From: Chitinivibrionales bacterium | Lineage (GTDB): Bacteria > Fibrobacterota > Chitinivibrionia > Chitinivibrionales > FEN-1185 | DNA length: 64,000 bases | Direction: 5' to 3' | Assembly: GCA_035516255.1 (NCBI GenBank) | Contig: DATJAL010000017.1 | Location: 1 to 64,000 of the forward strand | In this document: positions 40,178 to 55,722 of the stretch, piece after piece | Layout: each line of letters opens with the position of its first letter | Numbering within the stretch: the stretch's first letter is position 1 | Notes under the pieces: model-generated | The model's input: the letters and a program-made list of their open reading frames with translations, nothing else | Databases searched by the model: none | What the model was told of the DNA's origin: nothing | Made by a program: the position numbers and the translations under genes

Positions 40178-40265
40178 CACCGCAAAGACGCAAAGGTCGC
40201 AAAGAAGAGTTACCTGAGGACTTGCCCTTCACAAGCCAACTTTTATTGTTGCGTTCTTTGCGGTG
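40178..40265. repeat. Inverted repeat of CACCGCAAAGACGCAA type
   Basis: CACCGCAAAGACGCAA (40178-40193) and TTGCGTTCTTTGCGGTG (40249-40265) pair with two mismatches around a loop of about 55 bases, between two convergent genes. Could serve as a bidirectional terminator. Confidence 0.6.
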
Positions 40266-49742: not shown

Positions 49743-52283
49743 TCATTTCATCACAACGATTTCTTTTCTGTAAGACGTGTTTCGTGCCGAGAGAAACGCG
49801 AAATACGTGCCCGATTCGCATCCGGTAACGTCCCATTTTATCGAATTTATCTTCGCCGAAATGGCCTTGGAAAAAACACATTGTCCTCTCAGGTTGTAAA
49901 TATGCAGGACAAGCGGACCCTGCAAGGTGAAAATCGACGATGCAATGAAGAATTGTGTGAAACGGCGCGCCGGGTTCGGGGAGCATGAGAATGCCCCCTG
50001 CGATGACATAGAGGAATTCATCCGGGGAAGAACGGGACTGGGGAGCGGCCGGGGCAGCCGGTCGGCGAACGGATATTTGCAAAATGCGACGAGGTCGCCG
50101 CGCTGCTGCGCGGAAAAGGCGAGCACCGCGGTCTTCGCTTTTTTCGCCTCTCCGTCGTGCCACAGCACCGCCTCCATGATGCTTTGGGCCCGGCCGTCGT
50201 GGAGATAACTTTCCCTGCCGCCCGCATCGCCATTGAATCCGATCCCCCACAGCGGCGGCGTACGCCACTGGCTGCCCGACGCGTTTTCCTGGCTGTAATC
50301 GTCGGCAAGGCCGGCGCCCATGTCATGGAGCAGGAGGTCGGTGAACGGCTGGATCTCAAGGTTGTTGAGTTCGGGAAATTGGCTTGATGTTCCGGTGTGC
50401 ATCGCCGGCACATGGCATTTGACGCAGCCCGCGTTTTCGAAAAGCGCTTTGCCGCGGATGGCCGAGGAATCCTGCCAGTTGCCGCGCGGCGGCGGCACGC
50501 ACAGGGCCGCATACGTCAGCAGCAGGGCGAGACCGCTGTCGGAAAGTTCCGCGCCGGCAGCGCCGCCGCTGTCCGCGGGAAAATAGCCGCTGGTGAGTCC
50601 GATGCACCGGTTGGCGAGGTATGCAATTTCGCCCTTGAGGCTGGGGACCGACGCCTTCCAGCCGAACCTGCCGAGCTTTCGCACGCCGTCAACAGGGTCT
50701 ATCGCGTAATTCGCACGGCCCGAAATCCCGTCGCCGTCCCGGTCGCTCGAGTCGGCGCGGACCAGGATGCTGTCTTCGGGCACCGCTTCGAGCAGTCCCG
50801 CCCCGCAAACCAAGGGGCTGACGCGGTAGGAAAAGACGACGGTGCTGTCGAGAGGCCCCTTGGTCATATTGACAAAAGAGACAGCCGGCTTGCGCAGGGT
50901 GTAGGCCTCGCCGTCGCTAAACGTGCCGTTCACGGGGGTGTACGACACCTTGACCTGGCCGTCCCCCGCGGCGCCGCTGGCCGCCTTGCATTGCAGCACG
51001 TCCCCGTAGACCGGGTGCGGCGCGATACCGCCCTGCTGCCGCACTCCCAGCAGCACCATGGCCTGCAGGGAATCTCCCGCGCTGTCGGCCGTGTGGCCCG
51101 CGCCTGCTTGAACGTGGCATTCATAGCAGCTCGCCTGAAGATAACCGGGTCCAAGGCTGCCGGCGGCGTAAAAGGGGCTCTTGTCAACAGGGGAAATCAC
51201 CTGGCTTCCGTTGCAGTCCGGGTCGCTGGGGAAATTTTTCAGGTTGCCCGTTTTCCAATCGGTGTCGAACAGCGCCTTGCCCGAAAGGAAATCAGGCGAC
51301 CTGCCCCAGCCCGCGTTGACGCAATGCTGGGTGAAACCGTAGCTGGGCTGGGTGATGTAGCTTATCGACGCGTCGCCGGCCGGGTTGGCCCAGGGGTGCT
51401 GAAACCGCTGCCCGAGTTTTCCGCTCCCCACATAGTAACGGTTGAGCGCCGTTGTGTAACTGCGAGTCCCGGCCGGATCAGTGAGGAGGAGCTCGAAATC
51501 GACCAGCTCGCCGACCGACACCGCGGCAACCGTGGTGGTGTACCATTGGACGCTCGGACCGAACGGCGACCCCGAGGGGAATTTCGGGTCGGGCCCGGTG
51601 TGCTGGTTGATGAGGAGATTTGCAGCGCCCATGTTCAGCGCGAACTCGGCGCGTACGCATATCGAATCAACCACGCTGTGATTGAACGCGTGGAATTCGA
51701 GCGCGGAACTGTTCATGGCGGGAAACACGGCGAACTCGATGCTGTCACCGTAATCCTTGAAAGACAACATATACGCCGTGTTCGTGAAATAAGCGTTGGG
51801 AAAATTGTCCGACCGGTACTCGTTCTCGTGGCGGTCCCTGAACCGTCCGCTCGCCGTCACGGTGAGCGGCAGTTTCGGCGAGGGCGTAAAAGGCTGCCCG
51901 AGAATTTTAGTGAACCATTTGGTGTCGTCGGAAAAAGTCCCTGTTCCGACAAGCGGCGAGCAGACAAGGGTGTAGTAAAAGTCAATCTGTGTATAGGCCG
52001 GCGCCGGCACGGTCGCGGTGTAATAGTCGCCGGCTTTTGTCATGGCAACGGTGACAAGCGGCGCGTTGCTTTTTATATAATTAAGCGAGACACCCGAAAT
52101 AACGGCCTTTTCGTCCGAGGATTTGAACGGGAAATATTTGAACACGGCGCCGGAAGCGTTCTCGGAAACGTCCTGGGTGAAAAAATTTATATGGACAAAA
52201 TTGTAGGTGACCGCCGGAGCAATAGTGAAAAATGAACATGCGAGGATGCATGCAGGAAGGACGGCTCTTTTTGTTTTCGACAT
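49743..52283 (-). CDS. Secreted di-haem oxidoreductase (DHOR/peroxidase-like) with sorting tail
   Basis: 846 residues from the ATG at 52283 (a GTG nine bases upstream is possible). Signal peptide to about residue 25. An N-terminal beta-rich part (30-290) precedes a c-type di-haem domain with CYECH (386-390) and CVKCH (620-624); RFGWKASVPSLKGEIAYLANR, HDMGAGLADDYS, WRTPPLWGIG and YLHDGRAQSIMEAVLWHDGEA are typical of the DHOR family. The last about 75 residues (LVLHIYNLRGQCVFSKA...ESGTYFAFLSARN) are a type IX-like sorting domain. A haem protein exported by this route would be placed on the cell surface. Substrate unknown. Confidence 0.85.
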   Translation of the reverse strand: MSKTKRAVLPACILACSFFTIAPAVTYNFVHINFFTQDVSENASGAVFKYFPFKSSDEKAVISGVSLNYIKSNAPLVTVAMTKAGDYYTATVPAPAYTQIDFYYTLVCSPLVGTGTFSDDTKWFTKILGQPFTPSPKLPLTVTASGRFRDRHENEYRSDNFPNAYFTNTAYMLSFKDYGDSIEFAVFPAMNSSALEFHAFNHSVVDSICVRAEFALNMGAANLLINQHTGPDPKFPSGSPFGPSVQWYTTTVAAVSVGELVDFELLLTDPAGTRSYTTALNRYYVGSGKLGQRFQHPWANPAGDASISYITQPSYGFTQHCVNAGWGRSPDFLSGKALFDTDWKTGNLKNFPSDPDCNGSQVISPVDKSPFYAAGSLGPGYLQASCYECHVQAGAGHTADSAGDSLQAMVLLGVRQQGGIAPHPVYGDVLQCKAASGAAGDGQVKVSYTPVNGTFSDGEAYTLRKPAVSFVNMTKGPLDSTVVFSYRVSPLVCGAGLLEAVPEDSILVRADSSDRDGDGISGRANYAIDPVDGVRKLGRFGWKASVPSLKGEIAYLANRCIGLTSGYFPADSGGAAGAELSDSGLALLLTYAALCVPPPRGNWQDSSAIRGKALFENAGCVKCHVPAMHTGTSSQFPELNNLEIQPFTDLLLHDMGAGLADDYSQENASGSQWRTPPLWGIGFNGDAGGRESYLHDGRAQSIMEAVLWHDGEAKKAKTAVLAFSAQQRGDLVAFCKYPFADRLPRPLPSPVLPRMNSSMSSQGAFSCSPNPARRFTQFFIASSIFTLQGPLVLHIYNLRGQCVFSKAISAKINSIKWDVTGCESGTYFAFLSARNTSYRKEIVVMK

Positions 52284-52423
52284 GGTCCGCACCGGATAAG
52301 CGATCGAACGGTTTTTTCAATACAAAAAAAACCAAAAAGATCCGCCCCCCCGGTGTTAAATATACGCTATTAGGACGGGGTTTACCAAAATTCATGAAGC
52401 GAGCATCTCGTACCATAAGATCT

Positions 52424-52597
52424 GGGCGTTACCCTTCCTCGCATTGTTATGCGAGGAGGGGTCGGCCGTCCTTCCGGTCCACCCCTTCGGGTGCTTCTCC
52501 CTCGTCAGGGATTTCCAAGGGTCACAAGGGTCGTCGTCCTTCGGCTCGGGCAGCACCGCGCCCCTGCGCGGCCTCCAGTCTTGCCTAACGCACGGCA
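52424..52597 (-). repeat. Structured intergenic repeat, family 1, copy D (reverse)
   Basis: Read on the minus strand it begins GCGTTAGGC and ends GGTAACGCCC. The core hairpin is CCGCGC-AGGG-GCGCGG. The middle differs from the other copies, with extra hairpins such as CCTCGCAT/ATGCGAGG. Confidence 0.8.
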
Positions 52598-52772
52598 AAA
52601 AATAATCTGCCGTAGTTCAAATATTTTGCTTACGAATATGGTTGCGGAAGCTGCTATCTTCAAAAAGAACACTTGACTTATAATAATTATATTGCAGTTC
52701 GTTAAACGATGCAGAAGCCGCGGAACGCCCAATTTTTTAGTAAATTTTTAAACGGCGATAGGTAAAAATAAA

Positions 52773-52870
52773 AGCGGGCATTCTCCGCAAACGGGAAGAG
52801 GTTATGGCCGACGCCGCGCACCGGTTGGGGTGTCACGCCGCCGACAATTTGCGTTATAAGAATGCCCGCT
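52773..52870 (-). ncRNA. Candidate structured RNA 1 (long stem-loop)
   Basis: Arms AGCGGGCATTCT and AGAATGCCCGCT pair perfectly (12 bp). Inside, CGCAAA pairs with TTTGCG, and a GC-rich apical part contains CACC/GGTG. On the minus strand the closing stem is followed by TTTATTTTTA, so an RNA made in that direction would end like a terminator. No match to any RNA class known to me. Confidence 0.5.
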
Positions 52871-52885
52871 GATGTATTTTGGAAA

Positions 52886-52991
52886 AACCAAGCGGCTGGA
52901 GCCTTTATGCGCAGTCTGCAGGAGACCCCCCTCTCTGCAAAAACGGCATTTACACAGGTAGAATCCGTGTTCAGCTCCAGACCGCTTGGTT
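52886..52991 (-). ncRNA. Candidate structured RNA 2 (three-way junction)
   Basis: A 17-bp closing stem (AACCAAGCGG/CCGCTTGGTT plus CTGGAGC/GCTCCAG with one bulged base). Inside, on the minus strand, are two hairpins: ACACGG with CCTGTGT (one bulge) and TGCAGAGA with TCTCCTGCA around GGGGGG. The closing stem ends in TTTTTCC on the minus strand. It lies 27 bases beyond the LamG-protein stop and 15 bases from candidate 1. Confidence 0.55.
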
Positions 52992-53018: not shown

Positions 53019-54620
53019 TCACTTTACAATTGAGACAAGTTTCTGGTCCGGCCGCTGGTTCTCGTACGACAGCTTCACCCAGTCGTCCGAACGGGCGGCC
53101 TTCGAAATGTGTATTTCGTCGCAATAGCCGAACAGGTATGCCCCGTCGTACCCGAAAATGACCCGGTCCTTGGGGTTGTCGGGACAGGCCGCAAACGTGT
53201 TGGATTCCACGCCGGTCTTCACGCCGTCGATGAAGAACGACGCCGTTTTCGAGGCCTGGCTCCATGAGAAAACGAGATGGTGCCATTCGTTGAGCGACAG
53301 CGCCGCGTCCGAAACGGCGGCGCCGCTTCCTTTTCCGCCGAACGACGGATGCAGCCCGCTTGAATCAGCCGCCGCGTCGCCGAGGTACAGCCGCTTGGCG
53401 CAGGAGTCCTGGGCGATGGCGGTGTCTTTCGACACGATGACACAGCGCTCCCGGCGCGGGTTGAGCCACAGGGCAATGGTGAAGTCGTTTGCGGCCATGG
53501 GGAGAATCTGTTTACTTACCAGAATGTAATCCGTGCCGTTGAAGTCACGGCCCGCGCCCGCGATTCCGGTGCGGTCAAGTGCGGTCATGAAATTCGCGCC
53601 GACGGCGTTGTTCTGCGTGGCGTCCTTGAACGGCGCGGACCCGGCCTCCTCGAGGTGATACACGCCGGAAAAGCCGAAGCCCGTGTCGAACACGGCGCTG
53701 CTTTTTGACGCGCTCGTTTTGCCGGAAAATCCCCATGTCATGGTGATGAATTGGTCGGACGAGCCGCCGAGCACGGTGTCGACGGAGACCCAGAGGGCGG
53801 CCTGCTTGAGCGCGGTGTCCCATTGCGCGATTTCGTAATTGAGCGGCGTGCCGTCCGCCTTTGCGAACCGGACGTCCCCGCCGTCGGGCCGGAACTTCGA
53901 AAAGTCAACGTCCGCCGCGGAGAGCCTCACCAGCAGCGGGAAATGCGTCACCGCGTTCTGGACATTCGCGCCCGTCGCCGACGTGTTGATGACGAGTTTT
54001 GCGGAGAAGATCAGATACGTTGTATCCTTTGGAATTACCGTGACGTTGCTCTTGAGCGTATCGGCCGGCGCGCCAAGGTTTTTCATCATGATGGCGGGAA
54101 TGCTTCCCGGCGGCACCGAATCCAGCACCACGGAGGTGGCGGACGCGGGAACGCTCTTCAAGCACGTTGTTCCCGGAATGTAAACGGCCGCGCCCGACGC
54201 GCCGGCCGGGGTCCCGAGCGCGACGACCACGGTGCCGGACGGCTTGAGCGTGCCCGTCGAGACGGTGACGGTATCTTTCTTTTTGCATTCGATGCCCGTG
54301 ATGAGCAGGGAGGTTCCGAAAACCGGGTTGTTCGCCATGATGTTGTAGGTGCCGGGCGCCACGCTGGCGAACGAATACGATCCGCCGGCGTCGGTGGTGT
54401 CGCGGGTGATCTTTTTTTCCGCGGTGTCTGTCGCCGGGTTGAACCCCGCCGGGATGAGCAGCACGTGCGCGCCGGCCGCGGGCGCGCCGGCCGTGTCGAT
54501 GATTGCGCCCTTTACTTTTGCGTTTTCGGATGAGCTGGTGCCGCCCGTGAGCGTCACGGCGGTGCACAGGCACCAGCAGAGGCATGCGGCCGCGCACAGG
54601 GCGAAAAACAGCGCTCTCAT
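53019..54620 (-). CDS. Exported DUF2341/LamG-domain protein
   Basis: 533 residues. The ATG overlaps the stop of the upstream regulator gene (ATGA), with AAGGGG before it. Signal peptide about 1-20. Order of domains: a carboxypeptidase-regulatory-like sandwich (about 35-105, AKVKGAIIDTAGAPAAGAHVLLIP), a linker, DUF2341 (about 240-340, FPLLVRLSAADVDFSKFRPDGGDVRFAKADG...WVSVDTVLGGSSDQFITMTWG) and a LamG/concanavalin-like domain (about 350-533, DFTIALWLNPRRERC, NEWHHLVFSWSQ). Likely a surface protein binding glycan or protein. Translation is coupled to the TIGR02147 gene. No sorting tail of the usual kind. Confidence 0.85.
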   Translation of the reverse strand: MRALFFALCAAACLCWCLCTAVTLTGGTSSSENAKVKGAIIDTAGAPAAGAHVLLIPAGFNPATDTAEKKITRDTTDAGGSYSFASVAPGTYNIMANNPVFGTSLLITGIECKKKDTVTVSTGTLKPSGTVVVALGTPAGASGAAVYIPGTTCLKSVPASATSVVLDSVPPGSIPAIMMKNLGAPADTLKSNVTVIPKDTTYLIFSAKLVINTSATGANVQNAVTHFPLLVRLSAADVDFSKFRPDGGDVRFAKADGTPLNYEIAQWDTALKQAALWVSVDTVLGGSSDQFITMTWGFSGKTSASKSSAVFDTGFGFSGVYHLEEAGSAPFKDATQNNAVGANFMTALDRTGIAGAGRDFNGTDYILVSKQILPMAANDFTIALWLNPRRERCVIVSKDTAIAQDSCAKRLYLGDAAADSSGLHPSFGGKGSGAAVSDAALSLNEWHHLVFSWSQASKTASFFIDGVKTGVESNTFAACPDNPKDRVIFGYDGAYLFGYCDEIHISKAARSDDWVKLSYENQRPDQKLVSIVK

Positions 54621-55474
54621 ACCGTTTTCCCCTTGTCGTGCGTGCCGATGTTCGAGACGTCCTGGCTGAGCGGGAAGATCTGGAAGTTGAACTGGTACAC
54701 CCTGTTGCTGTTCTCGTCGCGGTTGACAATGGAGATCACGCGCTCCTTGAACGCCGCGAGCTCGGCGAGCAGCACCTCGTAGCAGGCCTCGGAGATGCCC
54801 ATGGTGATGCCCGAAATATTTCTTGTGTCGGGCGGCAGCGATTCGTTGGAGTCGCGGGCGAGCAGGAGCATGGTGCTGTTGAACGAGCGCCGCGCCAGCG
54901 ACACCACGTCGCTGCCGCTCGTGATGGCCGAATTCACCTGCCGGTAGGCGCCGTTCTTCTGTTTCTTGATCAAGTTGAGCCTCAGCAGCAATTGGACCGC
55001 ATTCTTGGCGTCGCGCGGCGAAATGGCGGGCCGCAGGCTTTTCGCAATCAGCTCCCAGTTGTCGCGGAAATCGCGCAGGCACACGAGCTCCCGCACCGCG
55101 CTGTTGTACCACTTGTCGAAATAAATATACTGGTCGGCGGTGAGACGGTGCTCGTTCACGTAGTCCATCATCGACAGCATGACGCTGTAATGCTCCTGCT
55201 TCTCGTACGCCATGGTGGCCTGGTTGAACTGCACCAGGTGGCGGAAGAACACGGCCTCCTTCTTGTTGAGGCTGAGCGCGAGGATGAACTTGTCCATGGT
55301 CTGCAGGGTGAGGTTGCGCTCGCCCTCGATCACCTGCTTGAGGAACACCGGCGACTTGATTCCCGCCTTGTTGGAAAAGTAGCGGTATGAGAAGAAACGC
55401 GTGGTGCTCTTTTTCTCGTTGTAGTAGTCGAGGAGGAATTTGCGGTAGTCAATGTATTTGAAGATCTTTTCCAT
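54617..55474 (-). CDS. TIGR02147/DUF4423 family regulator
   Basis: 285 residues from the ATG at 55474 (another ATG lies six codons upstream; neither has a strong site). The start MEKIFKYIDYRKFLLDYYNEKK and the middle YFDKWYNSAVRELVCLRDF...AISPRDAKNAVQLLLRLNLI are diagnostic of TIGR02147, a paralogous family expanded in Fibrobacter. The first 80 residues contain a helix-turn-helix-like segment (FSNKAGIKSPVFLKQVIEGERNLTLQTMDKFILAL), so DNA binding is likely. The gene overlaps the LamG gene by four bases, suggesting it controls that protein or senses its state. A second member is at 63393. Confidence 0.88.
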   Translation of the reverse strand: MEKIFKYIDYRKFLLDYYNEKKSTTRFFSYRYFSNKAGIKSPVFLKQVIEGERNLTLQTMDKFILALSLNKKEAVFFRHLVQFNQATMAYEKQEHYSVMLSMMDYVNEHRLTADQYIYFDKWYNSAVRELVCLRDFRDNWELIAKSLRPAISPRDAKNAVQLLLRLNLIKKQKNGAYRQVNSAITSGSDVVSLARRSFNSTMLLLARDSNESLPPDTRNISGITMGISEACYEVLLAELAAFKERVISIVNRDENSNRVYQFNFQIFPLSQDVSNIGTHDKGKTV

Positions 55475-55722
55475 ATAGGATAAATTTAACATATAATAAG
55501 GAAAAAGAACACCATAAAAAAGCGGGGAAATATGATTCTGTATTCAGTATGTATACAAGGGGGATTGTAAGGAATTGATTTAAAAAGGGATGGAAATTAG
55601 ACAGGAGTTTTTTAGATGATGGTTTGAGTACAGAGATCGGGACGGACTTTATATCATTTGAAAATTCATTCTCGATCAATCTACTGCAACAAATTAATCA
55701 TGACAAGGAACCAACCATAAAA

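Follow-up and report, generated by a model that had tools for sequence, protein, structure and literature searches.

A conserved tandem pair of candidate structured RNAs downstream of a DUF4423 regulator/LamG lipoprotein operon in one genus of Fibrobacterota

Downstream of an operon for a DUF4423 regulator and a LamG lipoprotein, a Chitinivibrionales bacterium (Fibrobacterota) carries two conserved elements, S2 and S1, that appear to be genuine structured RNAs; they are known from one genus and lie outside the described RNA families. The elements were found in a window of 64,000 nucleotides (contig DATJAL010000017.1, positions 1 to 64,000), by which we mean the whole stretch of DNA analysed; the genome to which it belongs (G000) has a size of 4.28 Mb. 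The only same-genus genome compared was G001, the MAG 'Fibrobacteres bacterium isolate fen_1185' (contig PLWQ01000026.1).

Position and anatomy of the two elements

The first-pass annotation of the window had proposed two stem-closed structures between positions 52773 and 52991, both with T-rich ends on the minus strand, the second a three-way junction with two hairpins and a GGGGGG apical loop, positioned behind the stop codon of the LamG gene of a regulator-coupled operon. All of these features are present in the sequence. Read 5' to 3' on the minus strand, the LamG stop (53019) is followed by 27 nt, S2 (52991-52886), 15 nt and S1 (52870-52773). The elements, their parts and the neighbouring genes are:

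52886-52991, minus strand: S2, predicted three-way-junction RNA of ~100 nt with an 18-bp closing stem (10 + 8 bp), from folding and conservation in G001
about 52886-52903 / 52973-52991, minus strand: S2 closing stem, 10 bp, a U bulge and 8 bp, around two hairpins
52952-52970, minus strand: S2 small hairpin P2, ACACGG / CUGUGU, pairing kept while the sequence varies
52907-52949, minus strand: S2 large hairpin P3, with an internal loop and the tip GAGGGGGGUCUC; core ~84% identical to G001
52926-52931, minus strand: GGGGGG in the apical loop of P3, the larger S2 hairpin, invariant in both species
52881-52889, minus strand: U-tract 3' of the S2 closing stem, GGTTTTTCC / GGUUUUUCC
52773-52870, minus strand: S1, predicted RNA of ~100 nt with a 12-13 bp closing stem, an invariant inner helix CGCAAAU/GUUUGCG and a variable, covarying arm
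52807-52845, minus strand: S1 variable arm, 39 nt in both species, with three two-sided changes in a structure-guided alignment
52793-52803, minus strand: invariant AACCUCUUCCC of S1, probably single-stranded
52764-52773, minus strand: U-tract 3' of the S1 closing stem, TTTTATTTTT / UUUUAUUUUU
53019..54620, minus strand: lipoprotein gene (ORF, Pfam), 533 aa, with CarboxypepD_reg, DUF2341 and Laminin_G_3 domains
54617..55492, minus strand: DUF4423 regulator (TIGR02147-like; PF14394, E 9e-33), first gene of the operon; G001 ortholog 81% identical
49743..52292, minus strand: di-haem oxidoreductase (DHOR; Pfam) with secretion tail, the next gene downstream; ortholog in G001

From its 5' side, S2 consists of the 10-bp stem, the U bulge, the 8-bp stem, P2, P3 and the returning strand of the closing stem, which ends in UUUUU. 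S1 has the same general plan, with a 13-bp stem, the CGCAAAU/GUUUGCG helix, the 39-nt arm, the unpaired AACCUCUUCCC, the closing stem and then UUUUAUUUUU; its closing stem (52773-52784 / 52859-52870) has 12 Watson-Crick pairs, extended to 13 on the minus strand by a G-U pair. In both elements and both species the stem runs into a U-tract on the minus strand, as it does in intrinsic terminators, a likeness that presumes transcription of the minus strand, which we infer. S2 also lies at the same site past the LamG stop in G001, a position expected of a 3'UTR element.

The start of the lipoprotein gene overlaps the stop of the regulator gene by 4 nt, again in both species. The spacing between S1 and the DHOR gene is 480 nt in the window, including a dispersed repeat, and 220 unalignable nt in G001.

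Folding energies and strand

On the minus strand, S1 has a minimum free energy of -52.6 kcal/mol (z -5.5) and S2 of -54.9 kcal/mol (z -6.7), each against 200 dinucleotide shuffles; by the same measure the plus strand is weaker (z -2.7 and -5.2, respectively). When the window was tiled with 2,130 tiles of 120 nt, the mean z was -0.16 (sd 1.2) and only three tiles fell below -5. A long stem with a T-run is not rare in itself, occurring 50 times in 864 kb of G000 versus 31 times in Markov shuffles, and was rejected as evidence on its own because it is too common; the significance of the two elements comes from their fold energies, tandem layout and conservation.

Conservation in the second species

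Both elements are present at the orthologous site of G001, between the LamG/DUF2341 lipoprotein gene and the di-haem oxidoreductase gene, and the order kinase - DHOR - [S1 S2] - LamG lipoprotein - DUF4423 regulator is common to both species. The G001 copies, folded alone and without an alignment, adopt the same two shapes (z -6.0 and -6.9). The two genomes are ~71% identical over the region of the elements; in a MAFFT alignment S2 has 72% and S1 61% identity, with inner blocks of 84-100%; by contrast, the linkers have 26-50% and the downstream sequence 33%. Within the elements, sequence differences lie in the stems and the arm, and the single-stranded inner blocks of 11-18 nt have none.

The first-pass annotation had made the RNA proposal dependent on conserved pairing in relatives, and this was borne out in G001: there are 13 variable pairs between the two species, all of which are kept, six with changes on both sides and none broken. 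The minus-strand consensus fold of S2 has a z of -6.9 against 500 column shuffles; that of S1 has a z of -3.7 with the MAFFT alignment and of -7.0 with the 39-nt arm aligned gap-free, a structure-guided choice that leans towards structure. In neither case was any of the 500 shuffles as good. On the plus strand, the consensus fold of S1 does no better than chance (z -0.7) and that of S2 reaches -4.9, and for both elements the minus strand is the better supported reading. With two sequences per element, the apparent covariation is good but not abundant. A coding function was considered for both elements and rejected, as aligning the two species opens gaps of 1-3 nt within them that break any reading frame.

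Searches for copies, relatives and known families

Both elements were described in the first-pass annotation as unlike SRP RNA, 6S, tmRNA, RNase P or any familiar riboswitch, and Rfam 15 returned no match in the window at the curated cut-off (cmscan); below it there were only chance-level matches to snoRNAs and miRNAs. S1 and S2 are single-copy, with only self-matches above chance and one copy per genome in covariance-model searches. Models built from the G000/G001 pair identified no others when run against 40 genomes from the order and 168 from the phylum, and pattern scans of GTDB contigs and IMG/VR returned only the genus pair. One weak R2 match, in G028, was rejected, as it appears to lie inside a protein gene.

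Integron attC sites carry R boxes of the type RYYYAAC ... GTTRRRY at their stem feet. An attC or insertion-sequence end had been named beforehand as an identity that would undo the RNA proposal, and the findings point away from both: the stem feet are GAAAAAC/GTTATTA in S2 and GCGGGC/GCCCGC in S1, neither AAC nor GTT is found at the feet in G001, the orthologous site is kept, and the several copies per genome typical of IS ends, MITEs or REPs are absent. Hfq (PF17209) was not found in G000 or G001 by a search that was positive in control genomes, and since neither genome encodes it, S1 and S2 do not qualify as Hfq-dependent small RNAs. There is also no sigma70-like minus-strand site just upstream of S2. 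The description of the two structures as independent holds for their folding, but with no promoter-like site just upstream on the minus strand and with short gaps (27 and 15 nt) they probably belong to a single 3' UTR rather than being free-standing genes.

The dispersed structured repeat between S1 and DHOR (52424-52592, minus strand) lies ~180 bp from S1 and has further copies at loci L051-L080, with ~55 BLAST matches genome-wide (E<=0.01). The repeat has a nearly invariant, GC-rich core, GCCGAAGGACGACGACCCTTGTGACCCTTGGAAATCCCTGACGAGGGAGAAGCACCCGAAGGGGTGG, flanked by GCGTTAGGC ... GGGGAACGCCC; the hairpins at its two ends are variable, and T-rich sequence often follows. It has no Rfam match, and a search of 60 relatives with a cut-off of E<=1e-6 did not recover it; G001 has only an 80-bp fragment of 75% identity and, downstream of one LamG paralog (L142), a diverged sequence that resembles it. 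Another, inverted element, CACCGCAAAGACGC ... GCGTCTTTGCGGTG, is repeated in both genomes (window 40178-40265; L180 2397-2494; L216, L222).

A second array at a paralogous operon

The nearest LamG paralog of G000 (C52; L140, 1200-1485) and its G001 ortholog (C25; L139) have another conserved array of strong structures right behind the lipoprotein stop. Three structures make it up: the hairpin GAAAGAAAGAGGGGGGGCUC..UUCUUUU; a terminator hairpin of 14 bp with U5, five pairs of which show two-sided changes; and a domain with a long stem (CCGGAUACUUUC/GAAAGUAUCCGG) that contains a further run of six to seven G. The whole-array z is -8.6. The gene that follows encodes a secreted enzyme, GH3-like by sequence appearance. 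Homology between the S1/S2 and C52/C25 arrays was tried with covariance models and rejected, as only the short G-loop hairpin scored above chance. The arrays appear to be analogous, with no demonstrable homology.

DUF4423/TIGR02147 regulators are present in 16-23 copies per genome in the two genomes. We surveyed 38 regulator-lipoprotein operons: the 16 of G000 and, of 23 identified in G001, 22. The combination of z < -5.5 and G6 runs occurs in only four of these, at the S1/S2 and C52/C25 loci, and is absent from the other 34; three are partial cases, with a G6 run inside a dispersed repeat (L239), a lone G6 run (L246) or a z of -5.6 without G6 (L247). The clustering of G6 runs in the arrays is notable because tracts of at least six G occur about four times less often than a first-order Markov model predicts, with 107 observed versus 402 expected in 864 kb of G000 and 54 versus 238 in 430 kb of G001. 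All DUF4423 (TIGR02147-like) regulators examined at the 38 loci precede a gene, often with a 4-nt overlap, and the products of these partner genes mostly start with a lipoprotein-like signal peptide.

Proposed function and alternatives

We tentatively favour, at a little under an even chance, a model in which S2 and S1 are a tandem pair of 3'-UTR RNAs that end the transcript of the DUF4423 regulator and LamG lipoprotein, and are either retained there or released as an Hfq-independent small RNA. Transcription of the operon would pass the lipoprotein stop into S2 and then S1. Each domain, with its long stem and U-tract, would double as an intrinsic terminator, S2 acting first and S1 as back-up; the domains would shield the 3' end, or a cut between the lipoprotein sequence and S2 would yield one or two stable small RNAs. 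The invariant exposed segments (AACCUCUUCCC of S1, the G6 loop and P3 internal loop of S2) would bind an RNA or protein partner. An enclosed domain of ~75-90 nt is unusual for a terminator hairpin, and such a hairpin may terminate only once its inner domain has folded. The model is favoured by the fold z-scores, the G001 folds, the column shuffles, the kept pairs, the contrast in identity, the shared neighbourhood and the 4-nt gene overlap, and also by the U-tracts, the lack of a promoter-like site upstream of S2, the absence of Hfq and the analogous, conserved paralogous array.

Sites complementary to S1 are not enriched before start codons, and no base-pairing target is indicated. The S1 sequence CCUCUUCCC was considered as a seed against ribosome-binding sites and rejected, as GGGAAGAGG-type words before starts are no commoner than permuted words. 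Kissing of CCUCUUC in S1 with the GAGGGGG loop of S2 (7 bp, -10.5 kcal/mol) was likewise rejected: shuffles do equally well in 877 of 2000 cases, an effect of composition only.

The main rival, which we consider rather unlikely, is attenuation of the downstream gene: S2 and S1 would be a tandem leader, responsive to a ligand or protein, that gates transcription into DHOR, or into the GH3-like gene at the paralogous locus. In its favour, a regulator-lipoprotein pair and a co-directional gene for a secreted enzyme flank the structures in both species, and likewise at the paralogous locus, the invariant internal loops resemble binding sites, both elements have a terminator-like end, and some riboswitch-type attenuators are known to terminate the gene upstream as well (PMC7821165). 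However, no competing antiterminator pairing was seen in a non-exhaustive search of alternative folds, and with the unequal, unalignable spacing described above and the repeat inserted between S1 and DHOR no tight coupling to DHOR appears to be kept. Also compatible with the U-tracts after both stems and the site directly downstream of the operon is the reduction of the pair to plain tandem terminators or 3'-end stability elements with an inner sequence that recognises no particular partner; protection of 3' ends by hairpins is known (PMC7821165). Ordinary intrinsic terminators, however, need only ~30 nt (PMC7821165) and no conserved inner domain, and the invariance of the inner single-stranded blocks speaks against this reading, which we regard as unlikely. 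It is highly improbable that a DNA-level element (insertion-sequence end, MITE, REP or integron attC) has been mistaken for RNA: the genome has dispersed structured repeats, one of them close to S1, but S1 and S2 are single-copy, occupy the same place in two species, show strand-biased pairing and lack attC R boxes.

Extending the 3'-UTR model beyond this locus, some DUF4423-regulator/lipoprotein operons of this lineage could carry dedicated 3' RNA modules (long-stem domains, G6-7 loops and a terminator) as an RNA output that gates a secreted-enzyme gene or acts in trans independently of Hfq; we put this forward as a speculation that is unlikely to hold.

Significance and comparison with known systems

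Regulatory RNA has been little described in Fibrobacterota, and full-text literature searches returned nothing specific on it and no mechanism for DUF4423/TIGR02147 regulators. That two regulator-lipoprotein operons, in two species, appear to end in conserved RNA arrays offers a testable RNA link to this unexplained regulator family, and S1 and S2 are a clean example of conserved RNA found by reading raw sequence.

Judged from sequence, S1 and S2 are structured RNAs linked to a 3' UTR and terminator, a kind already known, while these two elements match no described family. With 3'UTR-derived small RNAs (type I/II; reviewed in PMC7821165) they share the site after a stop codon, the U-tract end, conserved exposed segments and possible release by processing; they differ in the absence of Hfq, in being two in tandem, and in that the terminator-like stem encloses the whole element rather than forming a terminal hairpin. 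Like intrinsic (rho-independent) terminators, they have a G+C-rich stem foot followed by a U-tract at the end of an operon, but the stems enclose ~75-90 nt with invariant unpaired sequence. Riboswitch-type transcription attenuators have comparable conserved internal loops, a terminator-like end and a position between co-directional genes; in S1 and S2, however, no expression platform or alternative pairing was found among the folds considered and the spacing to the next gene varies. Candidate structured RNAs from comparative genomics (e.g. PMC2864571) are likewise recognised by covariation and conserved loops; S1 and S2 differ from these in having no Rfam 15 match and in being represented by one genus and two sequences.
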